Virus record (IMG/VR): IMGVR_UViG_3300027851_000075
Span: 1-36,466 of that record
Reading direction: 5' to 3' (one strand)
Source: a virus
DNA length: 36,466 bases
The position numbers were made by a program, and so were the translations under genes. Under the pieces are notes generated by a model. That model worked only from the letters and a program-made list of their open reading frames with translations. It was not told the DNA's origin and did not search any database. Shown piece after piece: positions 2,919 through 35,010 of this stretch; the first letter of the stretch is position 1, and the number at the start of each line of letters is the position of its first letter.

Positions 2919-3302
2919 TTAATGCACCCTCACCACATAGCTGCGGGCAAAACGCCGCGCGCGATGGTACCGCGCGTTTTTCATATAATTTTGATACACC
3001 TGGCTGCTCGAAAATTCTCCCCCATCTGCCCGGAAATCATGCTCCACCGCCACCACCGCCGCCTTCTCTTCCCAGATCTCCGCCGCTGCCAGGTGAAAAT
3101 CATACGTCGGGATCCAGTTTTCATTAGCTTCCTGAATGGGTGGTGTGCTGCTGTTGTCCCAGGTAAACGCTTCTTCCCCCTGTGCATCCGGCACCGCATG
3201 GCTCTCCAGGGTTTCCTCCATGTCAGCATCACTGTAACTAGTATCTGTCGGTTCTGCTGTCATGCGCCGCAGTTTCAAAATCATCGCCGCTGTTACGCTC
3301 AT
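2919..3302 (-). CDS. Probable head-tail connector/adaptor protein
   Basis: A 127-residue protein starting with a helical segment and a TDTSYSDADMEETLE stretch, followed by an aromatic helical core (FHLAAAEIWEEKAA). This pattern of a short acidic helix followed by a helical bundle is usual in gp6/gp15-like connectors that bind the portal ring after packaging. The ATG follows TTGGAGG. It lies between the small structural genes and the MuF gene. The family assignment rests on composition and position, not on a strong motif. Confidence 0.55.
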   Translation of the reverse strand: MSVTAAMILKLRRMTAEPTDTSYSDADMEETLESHAVPDAQGEEAFTWDNSSTPPIQEANENWIPTYDFHLAAAEIWEEKAAVVAVEHDFRADGGEFSSSQVYQNYMKNARYHRARRFARSYVVRVH

Positions 3303-3312
3303 ATTGCCTCCA

Positions 3313-3348
3313 ATACAAAACGGGCGGGCAATTCCATCACCCGCCCGC
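3313..3348 (-). terminator. Terminator-like hairpin inside late operon D
   Basis: Arms CGGGCGGG and CCCGCCCG with an 11-base loop are followed on the minus strand by TTTTG. It lies between the 3373-3765 gene and the connector gene and may lower expression of the genes after the abundant capsid proteins. Confidence 0.65.
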
Positions 3349-3372
3349 TCTTCTCATTCAGTTGCCCACACC

Positions 3373-5332: not shown

Positions 5333-5947
5333 TTAACGTTTTCTCAACAGTTCATCCATGCTCATGCTGACAGGGTTTCCACCGCCAGCACCATCACCGG
5401 CGTTCGCTGTGGGGAATGTGCCTCCATCCCGGAATAGCTGCGGATAGGATTTTTTCAGGCTCTCCCAGTCTGTTTTCCCTTCCGCGTCGATCAACCCATC
5501 TGCTTTCGCAGCCAGCCATGCCAGCTTCGGTTGTGCGCATCGCACATCACTTCCAAAGGCTTCCGTCATGAATTTGGTTTCTTCCGTTGCCGCCTTCAAT
5601 GCGTCCGCCATCGTTTGCAGCTGCTTCTGCAGGTCTTCATTCCCATCTGTCTTTTTCAACAGGGTCCGCAGCTGCTTCTCCATCTCACTCTTTGCGTCTC
5701 GTTCCTTCTTCAGGGCGCTCTTCAACCCGTTTTCATACTCCGCGAACGCCGTTTTCTGCCCGTCCGACCATTCCGCCTGCCAGGCTTCAAAATCTACCGT
5801 TTCAACCGCGCCAGCCGGATCGCCCTCACTCGTAGGTTTTACCGGTGCATCGGCCCCGGATCCGCCCATGCCTTTTTCAGCCTCCCGCCAAAAACGACCG
5901 CCGCGCATCCCGCCAGAGACATCCCGTCTTACACCATCAAATACCAT
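5333..5947 (-). CDS. Capsid scaffold protein (GP20/DUF4355-like)
   Basis: A 204-residue protein with a Gly-rich N-terminus, a long charged coiled coil (about 65-130, KSALKKERDAKSEMEKQLRT) and a C-terminal basic tail (MDELLRKR). This is the usual build of scaffolds that fill the prohead and bind the capsid protein through the C-terminus. It is the first gene of operon D and lies directly after leader copy 1. The ATG follows GAAAGGAATGCAGC. Confidence 0.8.
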   Translation of the reverse strand: MVFDGVRRDVSGGMRGGRFWREAEKGMGGSGADAPVKPTSEGDPAGAVETVDFEAWQAEWSDGQKTAFAEYENGLKSALKKERDAKSEMEKQLRTLLKKTDGNEDLQKQLQTMADALKAATEETKFMTEAFGSDVRCAQPKLAWLAAKADGLIDAEGKTDWESLKKSYPQLFRDGGTFPTANAGDGAGGGNPVSMSMDELLRKR

Positions 5948-5973
5948 TGCTGCATTCCTTTCAACTTCAAGTT

Positions 5974-6011
5974 AAAAAAACAAGCCGTGAAGACATTTCT
6001 ATCTTCACGGC
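5974..6011 (-). terminator. Intrinsic terminator of leader copy 1
   Basis: Stem GCCGTGAAGA/TCTTCACGGC with loop TAGAAATG, then TTGTTTTTTT on the minus strand, placed 27 nt before the scaffold start codon. Confidence 0.85.
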
Positions 6012-6104
6012 CGCTCATCTTCCGTCTTGCCCCGCGCTCTTCGCCGGGCTGCTGCTGGATTCAGGAGAATCGTAGATTCTCCCCTTTGAAAGGGCTATGC
6101 CCTT
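5974..6104 (-). ncRNA. Late-operon leader RNA, copy 1 (terminated, upstream of scaffold gene)
   Basis: Predicted transcript of about 130 nt from the promoter at 6111-6143. In order it holds: hairpin A (GAAAGGGC/GCCCTTTC, triloop ATA); hairpin B (GGAGAATC/GATTCTCC); hairpin C (GCCCGGCG/CGCGGGGC, one mismatch); a conserved unpaired stretch around CGGAAGATGAGCGG; and an intrinsic terminator. The same RNA heads all four late operons (24351, 28426 and 34834 are the other copies). Hairpin A is GAAAGAGC/GCTCTTTC in copy 2, so pairing is kept while sequence changes. A terminator before the genes implies that readthrough must be licensed, possibly by put-like antitermination. That role is inference. 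Confidence 0.75.
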
Positions 6105-6110
6105 TCATCC

Positions 6111-6143
6111 AGTATACCAAATTCCGCAATACTTTAAAAGCCC
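6111..6143 (-). promoter_or_regulatory. Late promoter P2, copy 1
   Basis: Extended -10 TGGTATACT on the minus strand. At the -35 position is a palindromic CTTTTAAAG inside a GGGCTTTTAAAG box present in all four copies, instead of TTGACA. The box looks like a binding site for a phage activator or an alternative sigma factor; this is inference. Confidence 0.7.
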
Positions 6144-6152
6144 CTATTTTCC

Positions 6153-6440
6153 TTACCCCGCCATCTCCAGCAGCGGGATCAAATCTTGATACAACCCCAC
6201 CGCGCTCATCGTCTGCAATTCCCCCGTCATCCGCAGCTCTTCTTCCGTCGACCGCAGCACCAGCACCGTATCCAGCAGCGCTTCCTGCTCCGCATCCAGC
6301 CCTTCCCGCAGCTTCTCCGTCAACTTCTCATTCAACAACTCCACCATCCACAGCGGGATTTTCCTGCCCTGGCTCGCTTCCCACGCCAGCGTACTGCCAA
6401 CTGCAACTACTTCTTCTTGTCGTACTTCATTGGTAATCAT
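6153..6440 (-). CDS. Cassette protein, copy 1 (95 aa, unknown; candidate late regulator)
   Basis: A 95-residue, mostly helical acidic protein with no recognised family. Two paralogues lie at 24534-24821 (nearly identical) and 28586-28888 (diverged, longer by five). Conserved blocks are AWEASQGRKIPLWMVE and ELRMTGELQTMSAVGLYQDL. The start chosen is the ATG nine bases after GGAG; an upstream in-frame ATG (6455) would put this Shine-Dalgarno inside the gene. The GGAG belongs to GGAGACACCC, which is complementary to the terminator loop of the RNA just upstream. Its position between that RNA and the late promoter suggests a regulator of late leaders, but nothing in the sequence proves it. Confidence 0.75.
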   Translation of the reverse strand: MITNEVRQEEVVAVGSTLAWEASQGRKIPLWMVELLNEKLTEKLREGLDAEQEALLDTVLVLRSTEEELRMTGELQTMSAVGLYQDLIPLLEMAG

Positions 6441-6466
6441 TTTGGGTGTCTCCATTTTTTTGCCCG

Positions 6467-6676
6467 CAAAAACAAAAAACCGCAACGCAGTCAACCGCCT
6501 GGAGACACCCATCTCGTGAGCAAATTTTCTGCGCTGCGGATCTTTGTCCACAAGCTTTAAATATATGTTAAATTAGTCGGTTTATGGCTATTCAATTAGG
6601 GCGGTTTGGTGCTTACTTTCATCACACCTGGTGTTTTAAAGTACAAAATTGCTCAAACTTAGAGGTGGGTGTCTCT
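6467..6676 (-). ncRNA. Cassette RNA (P1 RNA), copy 1
   Basis: Predicted approximately 210-nt RNA. Its predicted +1 (6676) begins AGAGACACCC. It ends in an intrinsic terminator: CCGCAGCGCAG (6529-6539) pairs with CTGCGTTGCGG (6480-6490), then TTTTTTGTTTTT. The terminator loop holds GAGATGGGTGTCTCC (6501-6515), complementary both to the RNA's 5' end (6662-6675) and to GGAGACACCC at the Shine-Dalgarno of the 95-residue gene (6444-6453). A second helix, TGAGCAA/TTGCTCA, extends the 5'-to-loop pairing. The RNA can therefore hide the ribosome site in trans or by readthrough, with its own 5' end competing. Confidence 0.7.
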
Positions 6677-6682
6677 GCCCAT

Positions 6683-6688
6683 AGTATA
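6683..6688 (-). promoter_or_regulatory. Promoter P1, copy 1
   Basis: Extended -10 TGCTATACT on the minus strand, seven bases before AGAGAC; no good -35. Identical in all three cassette copies. Confidence 0.65.
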
Positions 6689-6720
6689 GCACAATTGGTA
6701 TACAAATCCAACGCCTGTTT

Positions 6721-6756
6721 AAAATCAACCGCCCAGCTAATGTAGCTGAGCGGTTG
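6721..6756 (-). terminator. Terminator of anti-tRNA RNA, locus 1
   Basis: 14-bp stem with a CAT loop and one G-T pair, followed by ATTTT on the minus strand. Confidence 0.75.
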
Positions 6757-6821
6757 AGTTCATTCCACTCCCCAAAGGACTTGAAATGAACTATCGTCAA
6801 TTCTGACTGTTCTTGCGAAAC
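6721..6821 (-). ncRNA. Anti-tRNA small RNA, locus 1
   Basis: Predicted approximately 100-nt RNA. Its predicted 5' end (6808-6822) is a perfect 15-nt complement of the anticodon arm of the adjacent tRNA (TGTTCTTGCGAAACA in the tRNA). A small hairpin (GTCA GAAT TGAC), a longer GTTCATT/AATGAAC stem and a terminator follow (CAACCGCTCAGCTA/TAGCTGGGCGGTTG, then ATTTT). It has its own promoter at 6828-6856. Locus 2 (29197-29301) repeats this plan with a different tRNA. Confidence 0.65.
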
Positions 6822-6856: not shown

Positions 6857-6863
6857 TATGGAG

Positions 6864-6936
6864 CGCCCCCGGCCAGAATTGAACTGACATATTTTGTTTC
6901 GCAAGAACAACGCTTTGTCCATTAAGCTACAGGGGC
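6864..6936 (-). tRNA. tRNA with anticodon TGC (Ala codon GCA), atypical
   Basis: 73-nt cloverleaf: acceptor GCCCCTG/CGGGGGC, D-stem GCTT/AAGC with loop AATGGACA, anticodon stem TTGTT/AACAA with loop CTTGCGA (anticodon 6901-6903), T-stem GTCAG/CTGGC with loop TTCAATT. No CCA is encoded and the discriminator is G. An alanine tRNA normally carries G3-U70 and A73; here 3-70 is C-G. The body (A20, AATGGA D-loop) is more arginine-like, so charging with alanine is doubtful. Confidence 0.85.
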
Positions 6937-7697: not shown

Positions 7698-8201
7698 TCA
7701 CTGGCTGACAGTTATCATCGTCGCCTGAAAACTCCCCTGGCGGGAAGCGGGCACCAGCATGAAGCCATACTCACTCGGCAGTCGCAGCAGGTACCCGTTA
7801 TACGCCCTCTCCACCCCCGGGAACACGTCCGCCCACAGGCCAATTTTCTGCCCACCCACCATCAATTCATAACTCTCGCGCACCTTCTGGTACCGCCGTT
7901 GGAACAGCCAGGTGAACACCACCGCATGAAACAACCGTGTCGAATGATACCTGCGGGCGTAGAAGAACAATTTTGTCTTCTCGCGGTCCCAGAACGCCGC
8001 CTGCGGTTCAATAGCCATTATGGCGGCCAGGCTATTAAAAACATCCAATCGCGCCGCTCTGTTGCCTTGCTCGATCCTCATCAGCGTACTCACCGAAACA
8101 CCGGTGACCTCGCTCAGGCGTTCACGCGAAAACCCAAACTGCTTCCGCCACTGCAACAACTGCTCACGAAATTCCTTTTCATCTACTGGCTGGTATTCCA
8201 T
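7698..8201 (-). CDS. XRE-family helix-turn-helix regulator
   Basis: A 167-residue protein. Residues 10-60 form an XRE helix-turn-helix (QLLQWRKQFGFSRERLSEVTGVSVSTLMRIEQGNRAARLD in its expected order of helices). The remaining 100 residues are aromatic and basic and match no domain I recognise. It overlaps the zinc-ribbon gene upstream by 19 bp and follows GGAGAGG. Its place in the replication operon suggests control of early genes rather than the lysogeny repressor, which sits at 15317. Confidence 0.75.
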   Translation of the reverse strand: MEYQPVDEKEFREQLLQWRKQFGFSRERLSEVTGVSVSTLMRIEQGNRAARLDVFNSLAAIMAIEPQAAFWDREKTKLFFYARRYHSTRLFHAVVFTWLFQRRYQKVRESYELMVGGQKIGLWADVFPGVERAYNGYLLRLPSEYGFMLVPASRQGSFQATMITVSQ

Positions 8202-8416
8202 TGTTTCAACCTCTCCAAAATTTCAGCCAGGTGTTCTTCCCCTGGCACCCATAACCGTTCCGCCCCGCACTGACAGCGCACTTTGGCCTCACCGATGATC
8301 GTCACCGGCCCCACCACCAACCGCCGCACCCCATTGCCATCGCGGATCACCTTGCCTAATTCGCCTTTACACCGCCCACATCGCCATACTTTTGGATATT
8401 CACCACCACTCGCCAT
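8183..8416 (-). CDS. Com-like zinc-ribbon protein
   Basis: A 77-residue protein with two zinc knuckles, WRCGRCKGELGKV and VRCQCGAERLW, the layout of small Com-type phage zinc fingers. Mu Com is a translational activator that binds mRNA; whether this protein does so is unknown. A C-terminal helix follows. The ATG lies after GGAGGGT. It overlaps the XRE gene, so the two are made together. Confidence 0.65.
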   Translation of the reverse strand: MASGGEYPKVWRCGRCKGELGKVIRDGNGVRRLVVGPVTIIGEAKVRCQCGAERLWVPGEEHLAEILERLKQWNTSQ

Positions 8417-9247: not shown

Positions 9248-12220
9248 TCATATCAATCCTTTTTGTTTAGGTTTTGAAATGATCTTCAGCTCTTCTTCAT
9301 TGAGTAATGCGCTTTCGACCAGTTGTTTTTGTGTGATTCCATAACGGTCAGCCAATTTTGCAACCGGATCCGGCACTTCACTTGCCATCAATGCTTGCGC
9401 TACTTCCGCTTCCCAGGTAAGTCCATACCGCATGGCATGGGAGATCATCTTCATCTCATGCCACGCATATCGGATCCCCTTTCGGCTCCGCTGGGCGCTC
9501 CTACGCAGCTGCAGTTCGTTCTTCAAGATGGCTCCCACTTTCCGGCTGCTCACCTCGATCGCCGATTTAAACCGCTTATTGGGTTCTTCTTCCCCATCTT
9601 CCTGGTCATCGTTGCGGTTCATTTCATCGATCAATTGGTTCACCACCTCGGCAATATCGCCCGGATAAAACATCAGCTCCCCTTCTGCCTGCTCGATGTA
9701 TTTGGCATGCAGCTCCTGGTACAGGAAGATCTTCCACACCGCTTCCACCACCCGTGCGTCCAGGGTTTCTGTCCGGTTCATCACTTCCTGTTGGTATAAC
9801 GCGAACATCAACCGCTCCAGGTCTGCTTTCAGCGCCTGGTCATCACTGATCCTGGCCAGCGCCTTCATCGGCGCCGTCACCTGGTTCATGCGCGCCGAGA
9901 TCCGCACATCGATGTCTTCATTCTTGATTTCGATCTCAGGCCGCCAGTTCTCCAGGCGCCACCGCAGCAATAAGTTTTGCAGCCGCATCGCCCCACGCCG
10001 GAAGGCTTCATTCGTCTCAAATGGGATCCCCGTTGCCAGCATCTCCATGGCGGTCTTCGGCAGCAGCCGGATCGTGATACAGCGGTTGATCAAAGCGTCA
10101 TCTTTCGGATCCGCACGGCCGTTTAATACCTTCGGGCAGAAGGTTGTGAACGGCAGCGGTACCATCTCCTCATTCCCCTTCGCATCTTTCACTGTCTGCA
10201 GACGGTTGGTCACCCCGCCTTTCATCGCCCCCGAGTTCAATACCTTGATCCAATTGCTGGTGGTATCACTCTCCATCTGGTCGTATTCGTCGATCACCAG
10301 CGTACCGCCAAACATGGCGATGGTGCGGAACATCACGGCCGGTGTGTCCGCCCCCATGCTCTTGATCCGCCGGTAACATAGCCATCCCACACGCTCAGTC
10401 AGCATGCTCTTACCGCTGCCGCTCGGACCTAACACCCGCAGATAGCAGATCGCGTTGAAAGCATCATACAGCCAGGTCATCAACACCCAGTAGGCGATCA
10501 CCCTGGGCAGTGTTAGGTCATCAAATAGGAAATATTGTTCAATGAACCCGGCGATCATCTCGACTAGCTCCCGCTGCTCAACATGCTCACCCAGTGTAGA
10601 AGCAAACAAGATCGATCCTTTACTCACGAATTCATACGGCTCTTTCGGACAATATCGCTTGCGCTCCCCCTGCACCCACACATCCACATAAGCCGCTTTC
10701 CCGATCTTTCCATCGGGATCTCGGTAAGCCAACGCTGCAGTTTGGTCCTCCGGGTTGTAAAGGTATTCGAACAACCAGCCGTCATAATATCCCCCCCATG
10801 TCGAGATGATCTCGTCTGGCTTATCATCATCATCCCCGCCCTTCCCTTCCATGCGCTTCACCAGCCGGTCAAAGTCTCGGTATTTCCGGCCCATAGCGGT
10901 GGCCACGCGATCGCGGTATTGGTCTCGCTGGGTTTCATCTAATCGAAGGAACAGCTGCACCGCTTCCAATTCCAGCGAATCGTGATCGGTCCTGTCCTTG
11001 GTTTCTCCAGTCTTTTTGGCAAATTCTTCAATGTAACTGACCGTATTCAGTAACAATCCTCGGGCAGCATCCTCTTGTTTCTTCTGAGAATACCCCTGCC
11101 CCTGCCAGGCCTTCAGCAGGTCATTGGCATCTTTGATTTCTTTGCCGTCGATATGCTCGGGCCAGTGCAGCACCCCGGTGAGAGGTCCAACCGCATTACA
11201 CACTTTGGCGATGTGGTTTTGCCCGGCTTCATCGCTGTCCAGGGCAACATATACCTTGCGATGCCCGTTGAAGCCTTTCCGCAGCATTTCTTCATCACCT
11301 GCATCCACCCCTGTCAGTGCGATTGCTGCGATTCCCCATTGTCCCAGGCTGATCGCATCTGCCTGCCCCTCCACAAGGATACAGGTTTCCACGCGGTTCC
11401 CATATGCCTGGTTATAAAACCATCGTTTTTCACCCACCAGCCATTGCTGCAGGTTGTAATGCTTTTTCTCATAGATGCCTCTGCCAGAGAAGTATTCGAC
11501 CTTGCCATATCGTTTGTGAAAGTAAACCAGCATTCCCTGACCGATCATCCCGCCGATCCACTCTTTGGCACTGTCGCTCACAGCGACATGGTAAACTTTC
11601 GCCCATTGTTCGATGGTCCACCGGTCAGGGTGGTTCATCGGGTGATATCCTGTCAGGGCAACCGCAGCCGGGCAGAATGGATCACAGTTAGCCAGTACCA
11701 GGGCATCGATCAATTCTTTTCGATATGCAGCATACTTGGCTTGCTTTTCCTCCTGGGGAAGATCTTTCGCAACAAACCCTGCATACCCAAGGTTTTCCAT
11801 GATTGTTTCATCGGACCACCCGCGAGATCTCGCATAGGCCATGGCATCTTCATCGTTCGCCAGCCACCGTGAGAAAACAGTAGCAGCAGCAGAAAAAACT
11901 TTCTCACGTTCACTGGCCAGCTTCCGCACATCATCATCTTCATGGGTCCATTGCGGTAACGCCTGGCCGCTCTTTCGGCATACGATCTCAACCGCTGTTT
12001 TGAAATCACACTTCTCCCTCGCCATGACGAAATCAAAAACGCTGCCGTTTTCATTTCGTGAATTCCAGTTGTACATCTGGCGATAAATATCGACCACAAA
12101 CGAGTTGTGCTTACGTGCCCGAACATATCGCCCAGACTTTCGTTCCAGTTCAAAATCAGGATATTCCTCGATGATATTCTCGATCTGTGCATTATTCCTG
12201 ATGGCATCAAAGTCATTCAT
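9248..12220 (-). CDS. Phage primase/replicative ATPase (TOPRIM plus P-loop)
   Basis: A 990-residue protein. N-terminal residues 20-85 follow the CHC2 zinc-finger primase pattern (MYNWNSRNENGSVFDFVM) but lack its zinc cysteines. A TOPRIM domain follows (ILVEGQADAISLG, then VYVALDSDEAG, about 280-335), as in DnaG. The C-terminal part has a P-loop (GPSGSGKS, near residue 600) and Walker B TLVIDEYD (near 642), consistent with a replicative helicase-type ATPase. It would prime and unwind at the phage origin. Start MNDFDAIRNN is chosen because GAGGAGAA precedes it. The adjacent iteron region fits this role. Confidence 0.85.
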   Translation of the reverse strand: MNDFDAIRNNAQIENIIEEYPDFELERKSGRYVRARKHNSFVVDIYRQMYNWNSRNENGSVFDFVMAREKCDFKTAVEIVCRKSGQALPQWTHEDDDVRKLASEREKVFSAAATVFSRWLANDEDAMAYARSRGWSDETIMENLGYAGFVAKDLPQEEKQAKYAAYRKELIDALVLANCDPFCPAAVALTGYHPMNHPDRWTIEQWAKVYHVAVSDSAKEWIGGMIGQGMLVYFHKRYGKVEYFSGRGIYEKKHYNLQQWLVGEKRWFYNQAYGNRVETCILVEGQADAISLGQWGIAAIALTGVDAGDEEMLRKGFNGHRKVYVALDSDEAGQNHIAKVCNAVGPLTGVLHWPEHIDGKEIKDANDLLKAWQGQGYSQKKQEDAARGLLLNTVSYIEEFAKKTGETKDRTDHDSLELEAVQLFLRLDETQRDQYRDRVATAMGRKYRDFDRLVKRMEGKGGDDDDKPDEIISTWGGYYDGWLFEYLYNPEDQTAALAYRDPDGKIGKAAYVDVWVQGERKRYCPKEPYEFVSKGSILFASTLGEHVEQRELVEMIAGFIEQYFLFDDLTLPRVIAYWVLMTWLYDAFNAICYLRVLGPSGSGKSMLTERVGWLCYRRIKSMGADTPAVMFRTIAMFGGTLVIDEYDQMESDTTSNWIKVLNSGAMKGGVTNRLQTVKDAKGNEEMVPLPFTTFCPKVLNGRADPKDDALINRCITIRLLPKTAMEMLATGIPFETNEAFRRGAMRLQNLLLRWRLENWRPEIEIKNEDIDVRISARMNQVTAPMKALARISDDQALKADLERLMFALYQQEVMNRTETLDARVVEAVWKIFLYQELHAKYIEQAEGELMFYPGDIAEVVNQLIDEMNRNDDQEDGEEEPNKRFKSAIEVSSRKVGAILKNELQLRRSAQRSRKGIRYAWHEMKMISHAMRYGLTWEAEVAQALMASEVPDPVAKLADRYGITQKQLVESALLNEEELKIISKPKQKGLI

Positions 12221-15316: not shown

Positions 15317-15727
15317 GTGAAAAGCGAATTCTCCGAATTTCTCTCTAAGGAATATGTTAAGTGGCGTGGTGATGCTATTGGCAATGAACGTTCAATCACA
15401 GACTACGCGACTTTTCTCGGTTTTCAGAAAGCTACATTAACTGCTTGGATCAATGGATCTCGAACGCCAAAATCTCAAAAATCCATTAATCAATTAGTCA
15501 GTCATTTTGGAGACATTACTTATTCATTACTTGGTCTTCGGGAACCATCTAAATTATCTTCATTGCCATCTGGGATCCGCTCTGGTCTGGAAGCTGCCAT
15601 CTCAGAATTGAATGCAGAAACAATCGCAAAAGGCATCAAACCAGAATCACCCGAAGCTTTGGCGCTGGCAGCATCCATCTTCAAAAAACATGGGTTCACC
15701 ATCAATTCCACAACCACCGAACCCTGA
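15317..15727 (+). CDS. Repressor-like helix-turn-helix protein
   Basis: 136 residues from a GTG placed seven bases after the -10 hexamer, so the mRNA is probably leaderless. Residues about 20-60 (ITDYATFLGFQKATLTAWINGSRTPKSQKSINQL) are an XRE-type DNA-binding domain; the rest is helical (GLEAAISELNAETIAKGI). No peptidase domain for SOS cleavage is present. It is divergent from the RHH gene across shared operators and is the best candidate for the lysogeny repressor. A TTG at 15290 is rejected because it lies upstream of the -10. Confidence 0.75.
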   Translation: MKSEFSEFLSKEYVKWRGDAIGNERSITDYATFLGFQKATLTAWINGSRTPKSQKSINQLVSHFGDITYSLLGLREPSKLSSLPSGIRSGLEAAISELNAETIAKGIKPESPEALALAASIFKKHGFTINSTTTEP

Positions 15728-20249: not shown

Positions 20250-21793
20250 AATTCCACCACCTCCTGCGGTGCGCATGTGTACCGCACATGCCAGTATCCA
20301 TTTTGTCCTGTCCAGCTCATGCCGTTAATAAAATGTTTCACCACCGCTGCACTGCCTGCCGCATCCAGCACTGGCACCTCGATCGGGTCGCCGATGTCCA
20401 GGAACATCGCCCCGAACAATGTTTGGGATGATGCATTCGCGAACACCTCGATCGCTTCCACTTCCTGGAACACGTCTTTGGCGTGGGTGACGATCGTTTC
20501 CGCGATAGCCGCCGCCTCGGTCACTTCTTCCAGGTAACGCAGGTTCAGCTGCAGCAGCCGGTAGCCATTGGCCGCCTGGCTGGCGGTATCCTGGCTGCGA
20601 GCCGTCAGTGATGCATAAAAGAAGATCCCCTGCCCACGGGCCTGCAATTTGGTCACATACAGCCGTGTGGCGCCTGCGTTCTGCAGGGTATACGCAATAT
20701 CTGCCGCGCTGTACACCGCCGTGACTGCCAGGTCGCTGGTTCGGTCTGCCCCGCTGCCATCATCTTCATCATTTGCCAGGGTATCCACCCCGCTCTCCGG
20801 CAGGATAGTGCTTCTGGCAGTGATGCTCTGCGCCAGTTGATCCGGGTCCCGATACCGCACCACCATTTCTATCGTTTCATCCGGTTCGATCGAGATCGGG
20901 TTTTCCAGCGAGAAGATCACCACAGTGGATGCCGAGTATTTCCGCGGATACACGGTAACGATGCAGTCGTTCACAATATTTTTCCCATAGGTCAGGCTGG
21001 CCGCTGCCAATGCATCAAACCCGCGCATTTCCTCAACTTCATCCAAAATCAGCGGCGCGCCATTTTCCTGCAGCAGCCATCCGCCTGTTTCGGTCAACAA
21101 ATACCCGCTCTGGTCCTTACCCTTGGGAATGTGGATAAAGCTATACCCGCTGCGTGTCTCCCGCCCATCTACGGTCAGTACAAAATTTGCGCTCAGGCTG
21201 CGTGTCCCGCGCGCATAAAAATACCCTAACTCGCTTAACACTGCTTTGCTGATTTCCGACAACCCGTTCTGGTTTTGTTTGACCGTATCAAATACTGTTG
21301 GGAAGGTCTTGCTCATCACCCCATATTTTTTTTGCCCGTCGCTCAAGGTCATTCCCAGCACAGTGTTGATTTCATCAACCACGTCACTGGCAGTTTTTTG
21401 GGTCGTGATCAGGGTCGTCACTGGTCGGTTGTACTGTTCCAGCACGCACTTCGCGCTGATCCTTGCCCGTCGCAAATACAGGTTGTCCTGCCGCGGCTGC
21501 ACCGCATCAATCGCTCCGTACCACAATACCCGCTCGATGCCTTCATAAGCAAACACGATCCGCACTGGCGTTCCGTTTTGCAGCACTTTGCTGGCAGAGA
21601 TCGGGTCAAACAACCCGTTTTTATCCAGGGCGGTGAAGCTCAGGCTGCCCACCCGCGCTGTGCGGTCGGTGATGCTGTTCCCCTGGATCCCGCGGTGAAA
21701 ACTGATCGCCTGCTCGCTGTCCACATACGCCGAGATATCCATCCAGCCGCCTCCGCTCTCTACTTCGATTCGCACATCATCATAAAACAACAT
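20246..21793 (-). CDS. Tail hub / distal tail-type protein
   Basis: 515 residues, directly after the tape measure gene and sharing bases with it (TAATG), where distal tail and hub proteins are encoded in siphoviruses. It opens with strands (MLFYDDVRIEVESGGGW) and contains RTARVGSLSFTALD, then a GKDQSGYLLTETGGWLLQENG segment and a long mixed region. It probably forms the baseplate ring joining tube and fibre. The family is inferred from order and strand pattern. Confidence 0.65.
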   Translation of the reverse strand: MLFYDDVRIEVESGGGWMDISAYVDSEQAISFHRGIQGNSITDRTARVGSLSFTALDKNGLFDPISASKVLQNGTPVRIVFAYEGIERVLWYGAIDAVQPRQDNLYLRRARISAKCVLEQYNRPVTTLITTQKTASDVVDEINTVLGMTLSDGQKKYGVMSKTFPTVFDTVKQNQNGLSEISKAVLSELGYFYARGTRSLSANFVLTVDGRETRSGYSFIHIPKGKDQSGYLLTETGGWLLQENGAPLILDEVEEMRGFDALAAASLTYGKNIVNDCIVTVYPRKYSASTVVIFSLENPISIEPDETIEMVVRYRDPDQLAQSITARSTILPESGVDTLANDEDDGSGADRTSDLAVTAVYSAADIAYTLQNAGATRLYVTKLQARGQGIFFYASLTARSQDTASQAANGYRLLQLNLRYLEEVTEAAAIAETIVTHAKDVFQEVEAIEVFANASSQTLFGAMFLDIGDPIEVPVLDAAGSAAVVKHFINGMSWTGQNGYWHVRYTCAPQEVVEL

Positions 21794-24333
21794 TATTTGT
21801 ATGCCTCCGCCACGATCAACGCATTGGCCACTTCACTGCCGATATCCACCGCCAAACGCCGCAGTTCCGCAATGATGGCCTCTGTCTGCAGTCCAGTCCC
21901 TCCGTTGCCGCCTGAACTGGCCGCGCCGCCGTTGGCAGCTCCTCCCCCATTCTGTGGGATGAAGATCGCCCGTTCCGGCCCGGCCTCGCCTGCCAGGAAT
22001 AATGTCGGGCGCGTCACCATCCAGTCGCCGCCCTCTGCCTGTGGGATCGGGATATCCGAGAAGATCTTCTTCGGCAGCCCGTTGCCATTGTAGTTGAACA
22101 AAATGTCGATGCTGGCCTGCATGGCGTCTAGTGCTCGCACCTGGTCCTGCACACTTCTCACTTTGGTGTTGATGCCATCCACGGTCCCGGCAAACGCATT
22201 CGCCGCTCCAATCGCTTTTGTAAATGCCGCATCCCATCCGCCGATCCCTGACCCTGTTTTCGTAACCAGGTCATACACGGTTTGGTATTCCATCCCGGTT
22301 TTATCAACAATGCGGTTGATGGCTTCCTGCTGCGAAATGATGCCTCCCTGTGCTTCCTGCACCGTTTCCACTGTGTACAGGTAGTCAGTCAGTTGCTGCG
22401 CGGTCTCCGGTGTGATCAACCCCGCGTCGAGTGCGTCCCGCACCTGTTGTAATCGCGTCTCGATCCCTTCCACATCCACCGCGATATCGAACGCAATTTG
22501 CTGGGAAAATGCGGCAATAGTATTCCCCAGGCCGCTATTCAGCTCATCCAATCGCTCGCTGGCAGTCTTGGCTTCGTCGCCAATGCCCGCAATCCCCTCC
22601 GAAAACCCATCGGCACTGGCGCCTGCTTCCAGGAACGCTTCCCCGGTTCGGTCTGCGTACAGCGCTTCCTTCTCCATCAGTGTCAGGGTATCGCCTGCTG
22701 CTCCATCCCATTTGTACATCGCTTCGGTCACCAGGTCATACTTCCATGCCAGTGCTTCGATCACCATCGCCGTATCGGTATATTGTGTGAACAGCTTTTC
22801 TTCATGTTTCGTCAAAGCACCGCTGGCCAGCAGCGCTTCTCCCATGTACTCCACATATTCTTCATAATCCTGGCTCAGCACCGCCAGTTGATCGCTGATC
22901 CCTGCCAGGCTTTCTTTCTGTAGTTTCTGGGTTGGCACCACCATTTTGGCCAGCAGCCCCTGGTCTTTTACCGACTGGTTGACGCTCTCGATGGCGTTCT
23001 TATACCCCTCCAACGCATCCTCAGCACTTTTTGCGCTGCTGTAACTGGCGTCGATCCCCTCAGCCACACTTTCCACTCCGCTCTTCACCAGTTGGCTGGT
23101 TTCATGGACCTTGATCCCGGCTGCCACCACCGCCGCCAGCGCCACAACGTAAATACCGATCGGGTTCGCTGCCAGCCCCGCCGCGGTTCCGGTGCTGCCA
23201 ATGGCAGTCGATGCTCCGCCCAGTCCTGTGGTCAACCCCGGCAATAAACTTCCCAGGCTTTTCACTCCTCCCGCCAGGCTGCTGATACCGTTGAAGATCG
23301 GTCCGATGGCGATAGCCGCGGTACCCAGCTTCAAGATCAAGTTCTGGGTTTCATCATCCAGCGACCCAAACCATTGCACCAGGTCCAGAATTCCGTTGAG
23401 CACCTCCCCGGTAAATTCGCCGAACGCCTGTCCGCTCTCCCGCAGGTTTTCTCTCATAGCCGGGTCGCTCATCAACTCGATCACGTCTTTCAGGATCGGC
23501 TTCAATTCCGCAAACATTCCCCCGAAGAACTCCCGCAGCCCGATGTCCTTTACTTCGTTCAGGGTGGAGATCAATCCCCCGAAGGTGTCCGCCGCTTTTT
23601 CTGAAGCTCCCGAGAAATCAGTTTCCAGTGTGCTCACAATCGCATCGATTGCCGCTTCCGCCGGGATCAGTCCGCTCTCGCGCATCTTTACAATTTCCTG
23701 AGTGGTCACGCCAAATGCCCGTGCCAGGATCCCATTCACATCGATGCCTGCGTTCACCAACTGCAGCACTTCCTGCCCGGCCAGGCTGCCCTTGGCTTTG
23801 ATCTGTCCCAGTGCCAGGGCGATCGTGTTCATACCTTCCACACTGCTGCCGGTGGCGCTGGCATAATCGATCGTGGCTTCCGTCAGCCGCTTGGCTTCTT
23901 TGGTGGTAAAACCATACGCCATCGCAGTGCGCAGCGCTGTAGTGACCCCTTGCGCATCAAACGGGCTGGCCATGGCCAGTTTTTCTACCCATCCCAGCAA
24001 GTTTTCAGCCGTCCCGCTGCTTTGCGCCAACGCATCCGTCATATCGGTGGCGTTCCCGCTCACCAATAGCTCGCGCGCAGCCAGTTGTTGCAGGCTCAGG
24101 CTCAACGATTCATAACTGGTATACACACTCACCGCTTCTTTGGCCATGTTTTTAAACGCATAGATGCCGTTTTGCAGCAGTTGTGCCCCGAATACCCCTT
24201 TGAACACATCCCCCACGCGGCTGCCCTGAGAAGCCAACCCTCCCAGTCCCTGGCCAACCTCTTTCACGCCGCGGACTGCCTCATCGACATCCGCTCCGAT
24301 CAGTACACTCAATTTCGCCGCAATACTGCCCAT
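21793..24333 (-). CDS. Tail tape measure protein
   Basis: 846 residues from MGSIAAKLSVLIGADVD, after CAGGAG; an upstream frame lacks a ribosome site. N-terminal helical region with ATDMTDALAQSSGTAENLLGWV and SPFDAQGVTTALRTAMAYG, typical of TP901-like tape measures; hydrophobic segments in the middle (about 330-430); helical C-terminus. It sets tail length and crosses the cell envelope during injection. At 846 residues a tail of roughly 120-130 nm is expected from the usual ratio. It heads operon C right after leader copy 2. Confidence 0.9.
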   Translation of the reverse strand: MGSIAAKLSVLIGADVDEAVRGVKEVGQGLGGLASQGSRVGDVFKGVFGAQLLQNGIYAFKNMAKEAVSVYTSYESLSLSLQQLAARELLVSGNATDMTDALAQSSGTAENLLGWVEKLAMASPFDAQGVTTALRTAMAYGFTTKEAKRLTEATIDYASATGSSVEGMNTIALALGQIKAKGSLAGQEVLQLVNAGIDVNGILARAFGVTTQEIVKMRESGLIPAEAAIDAIVSTLETDFSGASEKAADTFGGLISTLNEVKDIGLREFFGGMFAELKPILKDVIELMSDPAMRENLRESGQAFGEFTGEVLNGILDLVQWFGSLDDETQNLILKLGTAAIAIGPIFNGISSLAGGVKSLGSLLPGLTTGLGGASTAIGSTGTAAGLAANPIGIYVVALAAVVAAGIKVHETSQLVKSGVESVAEGIDASYSSAKSAEDALEGYKNAIESVNQSVKDQGLLAKMVVPTQKLQKESLAGISDQLAVLSQDYEEYVEYMGEALLASGALTKHEEKLFTQYTDTAMVIEALAWKYDLVTEAMYKWDGAAGDTLTLMEKEALYADRTGEAFLEAGASADGFSEGIAGIGDEAKTASERLDELNSGLGNTIAAFSQQIAFDIAVDVEGIETRLQQVRDALDAGLITPETAQQLTDYLYTVETVQEAQGGIISQQEAINRIVDKTGMEYQTVYDLVTKTGSGIGGWDAAFTKAIGAANAFAGTVDGINTKVRSVQDQVRALDAMQASIDILFNYNGNGLPKKIFSDIPIPQAEGGDWMVTRPTLFLAGEAGPERAIFIPQNGGGAANGGAASSGGNGGTGLQTEAIIAELRRLAVDIGSEVANALIVAEAYK

Positions 24334-24350: not shown

Positions 24351-24394
24351 ACAAAAAAAAGCCGTGGACTATGCAAATAATGCATAGTCCACGG
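24351..24394 (-). terminator. Intrinsic terminator of leader copy 2
   Basis: Long stem GCCGTGGACTATGCA/TGCATAGTCCACGGC, then eight T on the minus strand. The inner arms share no sequence with copy 1, yet pair fully. Confidence 0.85.
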
Positions 24395-24489
24395 CCGCTC
24401 ATCTTCCGTCTTTGCCCCGCGCTCTTCGCCGGGCTGCTGCTGGGTTCAGGAGAACCTACGACTCTCCCCTTTGAAAGAGCGTAGCTCTT
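24351..24489 (-). ncRNA. Late-operon leader RNA, copy 2 (upstream of tape measure)
   Basis: Same plan as copy 1, about 139 nt. Hairpin A is GAAAGAGC/GCTCTTTC, a compensated change from copy 1; hairpin B is GGAGAGTC/GGTTCTCC with wobble pairs. Loops and the CGGAAGATGAGCGG stretch are conserved. Confidence 0.75.
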
Positions 24490-24495
24490 TCATCC

Positions 24496-24528
24496 AGTAT
24501 ACCAAATTGCACCCAACTTTAAAAGCCC
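24496..24528 (-). promoter_or_regulatory. Late promoter P2, copy 2
   Basis: TGGTATACT with the GGGCTTTTAAAG box at -35. Confidence 0.7.
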
Positions 24529-24533
24529 TTATT

Positions 24534-24821
24534 TTACCCCGCCATCTCCAGCAGCGGGATCAAATCTTGATACAACCCCACCGCGCTCATCGTCTGCAAT
24601 TCCCCCGTCATCCGCAGCTCTTCTTCCGTCGACCGCAGCACCAGCACCGTATCCAGCAGCGCTTCCTGCTCCGCGTCCAGCCCCTCCCGCAGCTTCTCCG
24701 TCAACTTCTCATTCAACAACTCCACCATCCACAGCGGGATTTTCCTGCCCTGGCTCGCTTCCCACGCCAGTGTACTGCCAACTGAAACTACTTCTTCTTG
24801 TCGTACTTCATTGGTATTCAT
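24534..24821 (-). CDS. Cassette protein, copy 2 (95 aa, unknown)
   Basis: Differs from copy 1 at only two residues (MN for MI at the start and S for A in VVSVGS). The ATG lies nine bases after GGAG, which is part of GGAGACGGGCAT (24823-24834), complementary to this copy's own RNA loop. It sits between the tail chaperones and the tape measure, interrupting a gene pair that is normally adjacent in siphoviruses. Confidence 0.75.
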   Translation of the reverse strand: MNTNEVRQEEVVSVGSTLAWEASQGRKIPLWMVELLNEKLTEKLREGLDAEQEALLDTVLVLRSTEEELRMTGELQTMSAVGLYQDLIPLLEMAG

Positions 24822-24848
24822 TATGCCCGTCTCCATTTCATGCCCGTA

Positions 24849-25057
24849 AACCAAAAAACCACAGCGCAGTCAACCACCTGGAGACGGGCATCTCGTGAGT
24901 AGCTTTTCTGCGCTGCGGATCTTTGTCCACAAGCATTTGAATATTCAGATATGTTAATTTAGTCGGTTTATGGATATAGGCGGTTGGGTGCTTACTTTCA
25001 ATTGCACCTGGTATTTTAAAGTACAAAGTTACTCACATTGCGAGATTGCCCGTCTCT
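24849..25057 (-). ncRNA. Cassette RNA (P1 RNA), copy 2
   Basis: Begins AGAGACGGGC. Loop element GAGATGCCCGTCTCC (24880-24894) pairs with the 5' end (25042-25056) and with the Shine-Dalgarno region (24823-24834). Terminator stem CCGCAGCGCAG/CTGCGCTGTGG keeps pairing with a G-T at a different position from copy 1. The second helix is GTGAGTA/TACTCAC, compensated against copy 1. Confidence 0.7.
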
Positions 25058-25063
25058 GCCCAT

Positions 25064-25069
25064 AGTATA
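25064..25069 (-). promoter_or_regulatory. Promoter P1, copy 2
   Basis: Extended -10 TGCTATACT; predicted +1 at 25057. Confidence 0.65.
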
Positions 25070-25095
25070 GCACAATTTGTAGACAAATAGTACGT

Positions 25096-27629: not shown

Positions 27630-28052
27630 TTACAATCTCCCATCGAGTGTTTTCAACTTGGCATAAAACGCTTCACGCTGTGCTTCCAGCGCGGGCGCTA
27701 AAAACGGCCGGGGCGCCATCTTGCGCGTTCCAAATTCCAGCGCTTCAGCGTAGTCCGAATTGGTGTACACCTCCCCGCCGATCACTGTTTTATACAGCTT
27801 GCGCTGAATGCTGTTTGTCAGGTGGCCGTAATCCATCGCCGGAGCCTGCCCCGCTGCACTGGCCTGGTGCATGCGGTTCGCGCCGCGTCGGTACAACCGC
27901 CCGCTTTTTCCGCCCTGCATGCTCAGTTTTGCCGCAGTCTCCACATCGGCCAGCGTAGCATCCACGATCGTCTGGATCTCCTGCGGCAGCTTTTTGGCAA
28001 TGCTTCCCAGCCGGTTGGATTCGATCCGAAACGAATACCGCAGCATCACCAT
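27630..28052 (-). CDS. HK97 gp10-like head-tail/tail completion protein
   Basis: 140 residues from MVMLRYSFRI. Helix (LPQEIQTIVDATLADVETAAKLSM), then a basic loop and the characteristic C-terminal YTNSDYAEALEFGTRKMAPRPFLAPALE. The Y-A-x-x-x-EFGT and PRPFL motifs are hallmarks of the HK97 gp10 family. The start overlaps the previous stop (TGATG). Confidence 0.88.
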   Translation of the reverse strand: MVMLRYSFRIESNRLGSIAKKLPQEIQTIVDATLADVETAAKLSMQGGKSGRLYRRGANRMHQASAAGQAPAMDYGHLTNSIQRKLYKTVIGGEVYTNSDYAEALEFGTRKMAPRPFLAPALEAQREAFYAKLKTLDGRL

Positions 28053-28408
28053 CACACCACCTCGCTGCAAACCACGCGCCGCGCGGTGGCATACGTGTGC
28101 GTGATCACCGCCGCCGCTTCAAATTCTCGTGTCCCGATCTGCAGGCGGTCCTTCGGCTGTACATCCCAGGCATACGGCACCGCCACCACGTACAGCACTC
28201 TCCCGCCCAACCGACCCGCGATCTCTTTTTCCACCGCACTGTTGCCCAGGCTGCCGATCCGCGCCGCTCCAGTTTGGGTAGTGGGCGTGCTTTCCACCCA
28301 GCGGCCATTATCCAACTGCCGCCGGGCCACCTGTACCCACACACAGGTCTCTGCCATGCTGGCTTCCTGTTTGGCCCTCATTCTCGCTAATGCTGCTGCA
28401 CTGATCAT
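28052..28408 (-). CDS. Head-tail connector / head closure protein
   Basis: 118 residues with an N-terminal helix (MISAAALARMRAKQEASMAE) and a beta-barrel-like remainder (RVLYVVAVPYAWDVQPKDRLQIGTREFEAAAV), the pattern of head closure proteins placed before gp10. First gene of operon B, 18 nt after leader copy 3. The ATG follows CAGGAGAAAG. In most siphoviruses a capsid gene would come between portal and this gene; here it is elsewhere (4376). Confidence 0.7.
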   Translation of the reverse strand: MISAAALARMRAKQEASMAETCVWVQVARRQLDNGRWVESTPTTQTGAARIGSLGNSAVEKEIAGRLGGRVLYVVAVPYAWDVQPKDRLQIGTREFEAAAVITHTYATARRVVCSEVV

Positions 28409-28425: not shown

Positions 28426-28464
28426 AAAAACAAACAAGCCGTGAAGACATTTCTATCTTCACGG
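28426..28464 (-). terminator. Intrinsic terminator of leader copy 3
   Basis: Same stem as copy 1 (GCCGTGAAGA/TCTTCACGGC), then TTGTTTGTTTTT on the minus strand. Confidence 0.82.
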
Positions 28465-28556
28465 CCGCTCATCTTCCGTTGTGCCCCGCGCTCTCCGCCG
28501 GGCTGCTTGGTTCAGGAGAATCGTAGATTCTCCCCTTTGAAAGGGCTATGCCCTTT
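28426..28556 (-). ncRNA. Late-operon leader RNA, copy 3 (upstream of connectors)
   Basis: Same order as copy 1. The C hairpin loop is GGAGAG instead of GAAGAG and the linker before CGGAAG differs by two bases, while stems are intact. Confidence 0.75.
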
Positions 28557-28562
28557 CAATCC

Positions 28563-28595
28563 ATTGTACCAAATTGCGCCCAACTTTAAAAGCCC
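28563..28595 (-). promoter_or_regulatory. Late promoter P2, copy 3
   Basis: TGGTACAAT with the GGGCTTTTAAAG box, which overlaps the stop codon of the cassette gene. Confidence 0.7.
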
Positions 28596-28888
28596 TCATT
28601 TTCCCCCGTCATCGCCAGTGCCGGGATCAAATCCTGGTACAACCCCACCGCGCTCATCGTCTGTAACTCCCCCGTCATCCGCAGTTCGTCTCCCATCGAC
28701 CGTACCACCAGCAGCGAATCCAGCAGTGCTTCCTGCTCTGCGCTCAGCCCGGCCCGCAGCTTTTCCGTCAACCGGTCATCCAATTCTTCCACCATCCACA
28801 ACGGGATCTTCCTGCCCTGGCTCGCTTCCCACGCCAGGTCACTGCCAACTGCTTCTACTTCTTCTTGCCGTATTTCATTGGTATTCAT
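28586..28888 (-). CDS. Cassette protein, copy 3 (100 aa, unknown)
   Basis: Diverged paralogue: changes cluster in the middle helix (EELDDRLTEKLRAGLSAEQ) and it is five residues longer (ENEGF) because the stop lies inside the P2 box. The core AWEASQGRKIPLWMVE and ELQTMSAVGLYQDLIP are unchanged. The ATG lies nine bases after GGAG in GGAGACCTCC (28892-28901). Confidence 0.75.
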   Translation of the reverse strand: MNTNEIRQEEVEAVGSDLAWEASQGRKIPLWMVEELDDRLTEKLRAGLSAEQEALLDSLLVVRSMGDELRMTGELQTMSAVGLYQDLIPALAMTGENEGF

Positions 28889-28913
28889 TTTGGAGGTCTC
28901 CATATTCAGCCCG

Positions 28914-29123
28914 CAAAAACAAAAAACCGCAACGCAGTCAACCGCCTGGAGACCTCCATCTCGTGAGCAAATTTTCTGCGCTGCGGATCTTTGTCCACAA
29001 GCTTTAAATATATGTTAAATTAGTCGGTTTATGGCTATTCAATTGGGCGGTTTGGTGCTTACTTTCATTCACACCTGGTGTTTTAAAGTACAAAATTGCT
29101 CAAACTTAGAGGTGGAGGTCTCT
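28914..29123 (-). ncRNA. Cassette RNA (P1 RNA), copy 3
   Basis: Begins AGAGACCTCC. Loop element GAGATGGAGGTCTCC (28948-28962), 5' partner 29109-29122, Shine-Dalgarno partner 28892-28901. It is nearly the same sequence as copy 1 apart from these three words, which all change from the ACACCC type to the ACCTCC type. Terminator stem CCGCAGCGCAG/CTGCGTTGCGG, then TTTTTTGTTTTT. Confidence 0.72.
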
Positions 29124-29129
29124 GCCCAT

Positions 29130-29135
29130 AGTATA
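29130..29135 (-). promoter_or_regulatory. Promoter P1, copy 3
   Basis: Extended -10 TGCTATACT; predicted +1 at 29123. Confidence 0.65.
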
Positions 29136-29196
29136 GCACAATTGGTAGACAAATCCAACAGATTCCTACAAAAAAACGTCCAGTTGCCTGACCGTT

Positions 29197-29336: not shown

Positions 29337-29343
29337 GAAATAG

Positions 29344-29416
29344 CTCCCCCGACCGGACTCGAACCGATATTTTTTTTACTGCGAGTAAAATGCCATGTCC
29401 ATTAGGCGACGGGGGA
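29344..29416 (-). tRNA. tRNA with anticodon CGC (Ala codon GCG), atypical
   Basis: 73-nt cloverleaf: acceptor TCCCCCG/CGGGGGA, D-arm GCCT AATGGACA TGGC (three good pairs), anticodon stem TTTTA/TAAAA with loop CTCGCAG (anticodon 29383-29381), T-arm ATCGG TTCGAGT CCGGT. No CCA; discriminator G; pair 3-70 is C-G. As with the tRNA at 6864, the alanine anticodon sits on a body without alanine identity. Confidence 0.88.
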
Positions 29417-34407: not shown

Positions 34408-34809
34408 TTATTCTGCTTCACTTTCCCAGCCGCTTCCGGTCAGTCCTGTTTGCAGCGTTCTATACTGGTTGAATTCCTCATACACCGCAGCCTCGATCGC
34501 ATTGGCAATTACATCCAGATCCACTGTGATCCCATAGGCTCGGTTCAGGTATTTCTCCACATAATCGATCGCGTATTGCTTTTTCTCCTCGATCAGCCCG
34601 GCCAGGTTCGCCTGTTCCGCAGCCTTCACTGCTTCGCGCGCTGCCAGCCGGATCATCTCATACGCCTCAGCATTTCGTTGGCGCATCCGGTTGCCCAATT
34701 CCTGCACCAACTTTACCACCTGCCCCGCCGCCAGCGTCACCAGCATCGGGATCAACGCCACTGCCAGGGCTTCCACCACCTTCATCAATACATCTCGCCA
34801 TTCCATCAT
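34408..34809 (-). CDS. Holin, LLH family (probable)
   Basis: 133 residues with one N-terminal membrane segment (VVEALAVALIPMLVTLAAGQVV), a helical middle and the DYVEKYLNRAYGITVDLDVIANAIEAAV block that marks LLH-type phage holins. It is the first gene of operon A after leader copy 4. It forms the membrane lesion that lets the endolysin out. The ATG follows AAAGGAAG. Confidence 0.75.
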   Translation of the reverse strand: MMEWRDVLMKVVEALAVALIPMLVTLAAGQVVKLVQELGNRMRQRNAEAYEMIRLAAREAVKAAEQANLAGLIEEKKQYAIDYVEKYLNRAYGITVDLDVIANAIEAAVYEEFNQYRTLQTGLTGSGWESEAE

Positions 34810-34833: not shown

Positions 34834-34876
34834 CAAAAAAAGCCGCAGTCCATACGTTCATCGTATGGACCACGGC
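34834..34876 (-). terminator. Intrinsic terminator of leader copy 4
   Basis: Stem GCCG..GTCCATACG/CGTATGGAC..CGGC with a two-base internal mismatch, then seven T on the minus strand. The stem sequence is unlike copies 1-3. Confidence 0.82.
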
Positions 34877-34971
34877 CGCTCATCTTCCGTCTTTGCCCCG
34901 CGCTCACCGCCGGGCTGCTGCTAGTTTCAGGAGTATCTGGGATTCTCCCCTTTGAAAGGGCTATGCCCTTT
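34834..34971 (-). ncRNA. Late-operon leader RNA, copy 4 (upstream of holin)
   Basis: Same promoter, hairpin order and terminator as copies 1-3, but without the cassette RNA and the 95-residue gene. Hairpin B is weaker. It heads operon A (holin to portal). Confidence 0.75.
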
Positions 34972-34977
34972 CAATCC

Positions 34978-35010
34978 AGTATACCAAATTGCGTGGAACT
35001 TTAAAAGCCC
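34978..35010 (-). promoter_or_regulatory. Late promoter P2, copy 4
   Basis: TGGTATACT with the GGGCTTTTAAAG box at -35, as in the other copies. Confidence 0.7.

Follow-up and report, generated by a model that had tools for sequence, protein, structure and literature searches.

In this study, we asked how a phage whose late operons are all headed by the same leader would switch those operons on, since the activation of late genes in tailed phages outside laboratory hosts is largely unknown. The DNA analyzed, here called the window, is a virus record of 36,466 bases, and it has four copies of the leader, all on the minus strand. The initial annotation had reported the copies ahead of scaffold, tape measure, connector and holin genes, and all four were located there (Table 1), together with features beyond its account, namely the strand, a third hairpin that proved to be the core of the element and a look-alike terminator at 3350. 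The names given to the tape measure and holin genes are well founded, whereas the matches behind those of the scaffold-like and connector-like genes are weak.

Table 1. Positions of the leaders, their elements and the associated genes in the window
Feature	Position	Strand	Remarks
Leader copy 1	5974-6143	-	Before scaffold-like gene; model R1 44.5 bits
Leader copy 2	24351-24528	-	Before tape measure gene (likely start 24331); R1 50.1 bits
Leader copy 3	28428-28595	-	Before connector-like gene; R1 37.7 bits
Leader copy 4	34836-35010	-	Before holin gene; R1 50.9 bits
Promoter-like box (GGGCTTTTAAAGT ... TTTGGTATACT)	6111-6143 (copy 1); 24496-24528, 28563-28595, 34978-35010	-	
Hairpin A	6088-6106 (copy 1); 24473-24491, 28539-28557, 34954-34972	-	Accessory
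Hairpin B	6064-6084 (copy 1); 24449-24469, 28515-28535, 34930-34950	-	Accessory
Core hairpin C, including 5' GCAG	6029-6052 (copy 1); 24414-24437, 28483-28506, 34895-34918	-	Counterpart in relatives
Putative antiterminator hairpin	6007-6025 (copy 1); 24391-24409, 28461-28479, 34872-34890	-	ACGG-AAGATGAGCGG-CCGT, 11-nt loop
Terminator	5983-6012 (copy 1); 24360-24396, 28437-28466, 34841-34877	-	
Scaffold-like gene	5333-5947	-	Under copy 1; E 0.0037, weak
Tape measure gene	21793-24331	-	Under copy 2; E 7.7e-20
Connector-like gene	28052-28408	-	Under copy 3; E 0.066, weak
Holin gene	34408-34809	-	Under copy 4; E 7e-12
Gene for 77-aa Cys-rich zinc-ribbon-like protein	8183-8416	-	Candidate trans-acting factor; tracks the RNA

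Each leader runs in the same order, from a promoter-like box through hairpins A, B and C and the stretch ACGGAAGATGAGCGGCCGT to a terminator with its U-run, an SD sequence and a start codon. The common promoter box, hairpins and intrinsic terminator described in the initial annotation were confirmed: the 13-nt GGGCTTTTAAAGT is identical in all four window copies, along with TTTGGTA(T/C)A(C/A)T, and each copy has the promoter elements TTTAAA and TATACT at a 16-nt spacing with an extended -10, hairpin A beginning roughly at the expected RNA start. The terminators are GC-rich stems of 13-16 bp with a U-run, and the folding energy of each of the four leaders lay 5.8-7.7 standard deviations below that of dinucleotide shuffles, none of 200 shuffles being as good. 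The upper terminator stem varies in sequence and length among copies 1 and 3, copy 2 and copy 4 with complementarity kept, and hairpin A of copy 2 has a G-C to A-U exchange. The start codon lies 22-35 nt past the terminator stem, and the little room that this layout leaves between U-run and gene suggests that the late genes would be reachable only by read-through of the terminator. In the head operon, before gene 2919-3302, another strong hairpin, the fifth, is found at 3320-3356 (minus strand), with a weak U-run and with GAGAAGAGCG at the foot of the stem; it is the look-alike noted above, stands unattached, lacks the core hairpin and promoter, and is perhaps a decayed leader or an internal stop.

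Copies 1-3 sit in a longer duplicated unit with a gene for a 95-residue protein and a further RNA-like stretch. The four copies are thus partly the product of recent duplication and not four independent witnesses, and the element was therefore sought in other phages as a source of independent evidence. L007 and L008, two contigs from the same sample, show no difference from the window but stop within the repeats at window positions 6272 and 24555, which makes the order of the blocks joined across the repeats less certain; among the contigs seen, no second one covers copy 2.

Searched as DNA and as a profile, the leader matched only same-sample contigs identical to the window, and nhmmer searches with the leader or the whole unit produced no credible match in 114 loci from outside the sample. 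These loci, which are relatives by portal and terminase, were also scanned without the leader sequence for a promoter, a strong terminator and a start codon. It was through this de novo scan and intra-record repeats (two similar leaders in L086) that the family surfaced, many of the leaders found by the scan having GAnATGAGCG at the terminator foot. IMG/VR, scanned for the loop motif plus terminator, returned 36 stretches, and by eye nearly all of them combine a promoter and a GCAG-type core hairpin with a gene start; a wider scan returned 42, five of the six new ones being genuine by eye and the other (L180) a chance match. The covariance model R1 matched 35 of 36 full virus records, six of which have two copies. 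The RNAalifold structure of alignment A4 is poor at the terminator, as MAFFT scatters its 3' arm, so that R1 rests largely on sequence; chance matches to R1 reach 29.6 bits, equal to weak true members, and low scores were therefore judged by eye. The look-alike at window 3350 was omitted from the alignment and from the pairing test on 33 leaders described below, L144, which is cut, was omitted from the alignment, and near-identical copies were counted once.

Thirteen genome contigs also matched, of which 11 were chance or coding matches and two were prophages in Chloroflexota MAGs with two copies each. One copy in HGW-Chloroflexi-8 precedes a holin-spanin-endolysin-terminase-portal run (names by eye), and the other precedes a scaffold-like gene, as in the window. 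Under strict filters, the class to which the MAG host belongs shows the RNA in one genome out of 396, the MAG itself. In the GenBank phage Rctr41k, a leader (15614-15703; E 2.8e-4) occupies the gap that precedes the packaging and structural genes. Altogether, the same RNA was found in about 67 distinct copies in IMG/VR phages, the two Chloroflexota prophages and Rctr41k, with one or two copies per related phage. Where the first gene behind one of the 52 distinct leaders scanned has a named phage match, it is to a holin (several families), scaffold, portal or GH25 lysin/lysis protein; a few single weak matches to other names were treated as noise, and the remaining genes are unnamed, many of them short and membrane-like by eye. 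Rfam searches, covering the window and five relatives at gathering thresholds and window 5940-6760 at E<=1, identified only two tRNAs.

Several other repeats were encountered in the relatives. Those in L038, L048, L033 and L101 were inspected and are of a different kind from the leader. L108 has two diverged leaders of the same layout (433-549 and 10525-10641), in which CCAG and CTGG arms enclose the loops CACTGGCCC and AATTGGCCC; the start of this record lies within a gene that matches the zinc-ribbon profile. The related phages L048 (7717, 11360, 12925, 17169, 20593; GGGACTGATAAnnnnTTGTTATGCGTGC) and L075 (11196, 17314; GACAAnnCnTTGTTGTGGGAGCAAAAGTC) have further hairpin-like motifs that recur between genes.

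Comparison of the leaders revealed that the conserved core is hairpin C followed by AGAUGAGCGC, flanked by mutually pairing arms, whereas hairpins A and B are not conserved in relatives. The arms directly 5' and 3' of AGATGAGCGC are 4-6 nt long, complementary and change together. As can be read directly from the sequences, the 3' arm of this putative antiterminator is also the 5' arm of the terminator, and the two folds therefore exclude each other. Weak RNA hairpins that overlap the 5' arm of a terminator and are stabilized by a protein are known from the RAT or LicT-BglG attenuators of sugar operons. The leader family has the same mutually exclusive arrangement, but its loop and arm sequences are different and it controls phage late genes.

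The pairing of the antiterminator arms was supported statistically. In 33 leaders aligned in the register of a 12-nt loop, 84 of 99 possible pairs were formed, compared with 32.8 +/- 4.6 in 2000 permutations, and registers of 10, 11, 13, 14 and 15 nt gave no signal. As these leaders had mostly been chosen by motif, the test was repeated on leaders retrieved by the protein only (see below). The 29 distinct leaders of this kind formed 112 of 145 pairs versus 67.9 +/- 5.4 (0 of 2000 permutations as high), with 75.9% of cells paired by a pair counter versus 55.1 +/- 2.9 when shuffled (0 of 500) and a covariation of 0.611 versus 0.205 +/- 0.038 (0 of 500), slid registers giving 0.06-0.27. All 67 leaders together have 241 of 335 Watson-Crick pairs versus 140 +/- 8 (0 of 2000). 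A portal-derived set of ten, including the four window copies, was not significant (20 of 50 versus 16.2 +/- 2.2); the window copies have an 11-nt loop, and so are counted as unpaired in the 12-nt register. Individual leaders illustrate the exchanges, with the closing pair swapped from G-C to A-U in L172, L175 and L177 and a compensating change (GGACTCC/GGAGT) in L264. A leader peptide was rejected, the ATG in the loop being lost in L077, L086, L114, L258, L260 and L264.

The energies calculated for eight leaders are -1.9 to -6.9 kcal/mol for the antiterminator and -22.9 to -37.1 kcal/mol for the terminator, a difference so large that the antiterminator would need a stabilizer. We favor, at a probability of about 0.52, local attenuation, in which the late operons would be shut by the terminator and opened when a protein stabilizes the antiterminator. 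A sigma-70-type promoter at each late operon would fire a short leader RNA which, by default, would stop a few dozen nt short of the first late gene, at the strong intrinsic terminator. The small hairpin with the conserved loop, right after the core hairpin, would form first, but weakly. A zinc-ribbon-like protein, whose gene lies upstream on the same strand, would bind it, probably together with the core hairpin, and the small hairpin so held would block the terminator and let RNA polymerase enter the late genes. As each late operon has its own leader copy, one protein could open all of them together.

The overlap of the two folds also separates the leader from the put RNAs of phage HK022, to which the initial annotation had likened the paired hairpins at the 5' end. 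Hairpins do lie at the 5' end of phage transcripts in both cases. However, put, an element of early operons of about 70 nt, consists wholly of two stem-loops and acts without a phage protein through the zinc-binding domain of the polymerase beta' subunit, and an antiterminator overlapping a terminator is not part of its description in the available text of PMC9378689. In the window the two 5' hairpins are accessory to a core formed by hairpin C and the antiterminator, and a phage protein tracks the leader RNA, which argues against an action of the put type.

A textbook U-run follows the hairpin in 51 of the 67 leaders. Ten others, counted by eye, keep a perfect hairpin with no U-run (L117, L255, L257, L260, L268, L269, L270, L271, L275 and L276), which excludes a classical intrinsic terminator in those copies; the automatic stem call had missed or overrun the U-run in L251, L258, L262, L283, L125 and L231. 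In L257, L260, L268, L269, L271, L275 and similar copies, which form a sub-branch, a CTCG(A/C)CGTTTAAGG-like sequence stands after the hairpin in place of the U-run. The ten copies may reflect pausing, unusual termination or another job of the RNA-protein pair, and none of the models considered here explains them well. They would need no part in termination under a post-transcriptional role, in which the hairpins protect the 5' end of the mRNA or guide its processing or the translation of the first gene, with constitutive read-through of the terminator. The hairpin does lie 15-110 nt upstream of the start codon in most leaders, as such a role would have it, but the many textbook U-runs, the antiterminator that excludes the hairpin and ribosome sites that, by eye, the hairpins leave uncovered render it very improbable.

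Leaders that retain the hairpin and lose the U-run also suggest a job beyond local termination, such as processive antitermination, in which the nascent leader, alone in the manner of put RNA or together with the zinc-ribbon-like protein, would stay on the polymerase and cause it to ignore later stops, the hairpin being a loading signal and first barrier. The conAn system of Gram-positive conjugation operons offers a precedent in the available text of PMC8955417, a small protein and a leader RNA modifying polymerase to pass over 20 internal terminators; as in conAn, an RNA and a small protein are associated with the operon head, here by linkage only, and the two systems are likened by description and not by sequence. 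The look-alike terminator within the head operon of the window would likewise give a processive complex something to pass. Such obstacles are few, however. Over 381,693 nt downstream of the first leaders in 23 records, the late strand has 12 strong terminators, seven of which are further leaders and five of which are not, and the other strand has 15. The many bypassed terminators of conAn have no counterpart here. A processive first leader would also leave a second one within the late region without a purpose, and an antiterminator that overlaps its terminator is the arrangement of local attenuators. The overlapping folds, the separate leader copy for every operon and the scarcity of internal terminators thus lead us to favor local over processive action, the latter being rather unlikely. 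The antitermination regulon of the initial annotation is sustained in part: terminated leaders head every late operon and the layout recurs in other phages, a genome-wide processive action being the less likely mode.

The candidate for the stabilizing protein emerged from an ORF comparison of 23 leader-bearing records, in which the family of window gene 1245-2918 was present in 20 and a family of small Cys-rich proteins (pattern WxCxNGHxLGxV ... VRCSICGxxRTW), including the 77-residue protein of the window, in 18. The five records with a leader and no such protein were G399, G402, G412 and G001, which are fragments, and G404, which perhaps is not (40 of 40.8 kb). Every match to the protein fell in a leader-bearing record among all loci collected to that point. 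A search of IMG/VR by the protein alone retrieved 38 loci, and, with L143 left out of the scan, 34 of 37 had a leader at E<=1 (19 at E<1e-4) on the same strand, 57-7101 nt downstream of the gene; weak matches were checked by eye and have compensating changes. The three misses were L263, which has a variant leader (12.9 bits), L282, which has one by eye, and L280, whose record ends 1.27 kb past the gene. The leader had already led to nine of the 37 records, and 25 of the other 28 have one. In GenBank, the protein was found in one phage, Rctr41k, which also has the leader. Among 31 portal-relative records, leaders were present in four of five with the protein versus three of 26 without it, for which the Fisher p-value (0.005) is indicative only, as six of the records had been chosen for the leader and 25 had not. 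The fifth protein-bearing relative, G454, has two diverged leaders by eye, and G435, chosen for neither, has both protein and leader.

The linkage of this protein to the RNA replaces the proposal of the initial annotation that the antiterminator is the 95-residue protein, whose gene does precede copies 1-3. That gene is absent before copy 4, and the protein has no relative in IMG/VR, GenBank phages, Pfam or PHROGs and none outside the window phage, while the leader family is wide; we give it hardly any credence in this role. The 77-residue protein appears zinc ribbon-like from its Cys/His pattern and predicted strand order, and not from a fold match. No Pfam, PHROGs or NCBIfam model covers its family, and AlphaFold models (pLDDT 80 and 88) predict a small, all-strand protein with a C-terminal helix and no helix-turn-helix. 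Fold searches of the PDB yielded nothing at E<=0.001, the top VIA Z scores being 2.4 and 3.5, and the best BFVD match (E 0.005) is unnamed; the profile of the protein had only two weak matches to PDB sequences, which were taken as spurious; no known RNA-binding family or fold matched in the family, profile and fold searches. The CAT/PRD family of Pfam was not detected in 17 candidate proteins at E<=1, and LicT was matched at noise level (VIA Z 2.1, rmsd 3.2 over 44 residues). As a small, Cys-rich candidate regulator that carries an IRCPxC motif, the protein resembles Com of phage Mu, a translational activator, but hhalign showed no relationship (probability 6.1%, 10 columns).

Lambdoid phages have terminated late leaders, and the position just before the leader is the place of a Q gene. 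In L256, L274, L278, L279 and L286 the gene for the zinc-ribbon-like protein ends 57-171 nt before the leader, and the invariant 13-nt box upstream of the promoter in the window copies could likewise be a site of the kind that Q would use. The protein might thus bind promoter DNA, load at a promoter-proximal pause and suppress the terminator, with the RNA folds being secondary. The Q proteins of lambda and 21 and AlpA load through promoter DNA, with a terminated leader before the controlled genes, in the available text of PMC9371919, and the window shares with them the succession of promoter, short leader, terminator and controlled genes, with the regulator gene upstream. However, the 13-nt box is confined to the four window copies and absent from relatives, the predicted models of strands plus one C-terminal helix have no helix-turn-helix, and it is the transcribed loop and the covarying RNA arms that are conserved, with several copies serving several operons, where Q and AlpA rely on DNA loading. 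We regard this mode of action as improbable.

The leaders are accompanied by other RNA features. Three phage tRNAs with Ala anticodons, at window 6863-6936 and 29343-29416 (both minus strand) and in L225 (G419:C1:16590-16663), each have, 40-54 nt downstream, a stretch of 14-15 nt that is a perfect antisense of their own anticodon arm, with a TATAAT-like box ahead of it and a small hairpin after it; in the window this layout takes up about 60 nt downstream of each tRNA. The antisense stretch varies along with its tRNA, and all three pairs are upstream of a late leader; the other seven of the ten tRNAs found have no such antisense (at most 9 nt). Each of the three looks like a pair of tRNA and anti-tRNA small RNA. 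The two window tRNAs are, by eye, without the G3:U70 of alanine tRNAs. Upstream of each gene for the 95-residue protein is a second RNA-like region (6440-6696, 24821-25077 and 28888-29143, minus strand), in which the RNA 5' end has GAGACnnnCA, the loop of a long terminator-like hairpin has TGnnnGTCTC and GGAGACnnnCA lies over the SD sequence of the gene. The three variable bases differ in each copy with complementarity kept, and the region is predicted to be a three-way switch; it has no match elsewhere in IMG/VR.

The RNA family, the protein and their combination are new to the databases and to the open-licence PMC papers searched, the principles of the components being already known. We tentatively propose, at somewhat less than even odds, that they represent an undescribed class of late-gene control in Chloroflexota phages, a leader-RNA regulon with one leader per late operon and a zinc-ribbon-like protein that reads a conserved 10-nt loop and thereby frees late transcription, of which the sub-branch without a U-run may act independently of termination. 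The RNA family, the candidate protein and 67 natural variants with compensatory changes make a switch for lysis and assembly in Chloroflexota phages testable in vitro. If the proposal is true, it would represent a rare phage regulon of multiple operons that is run via RNA attenuation.
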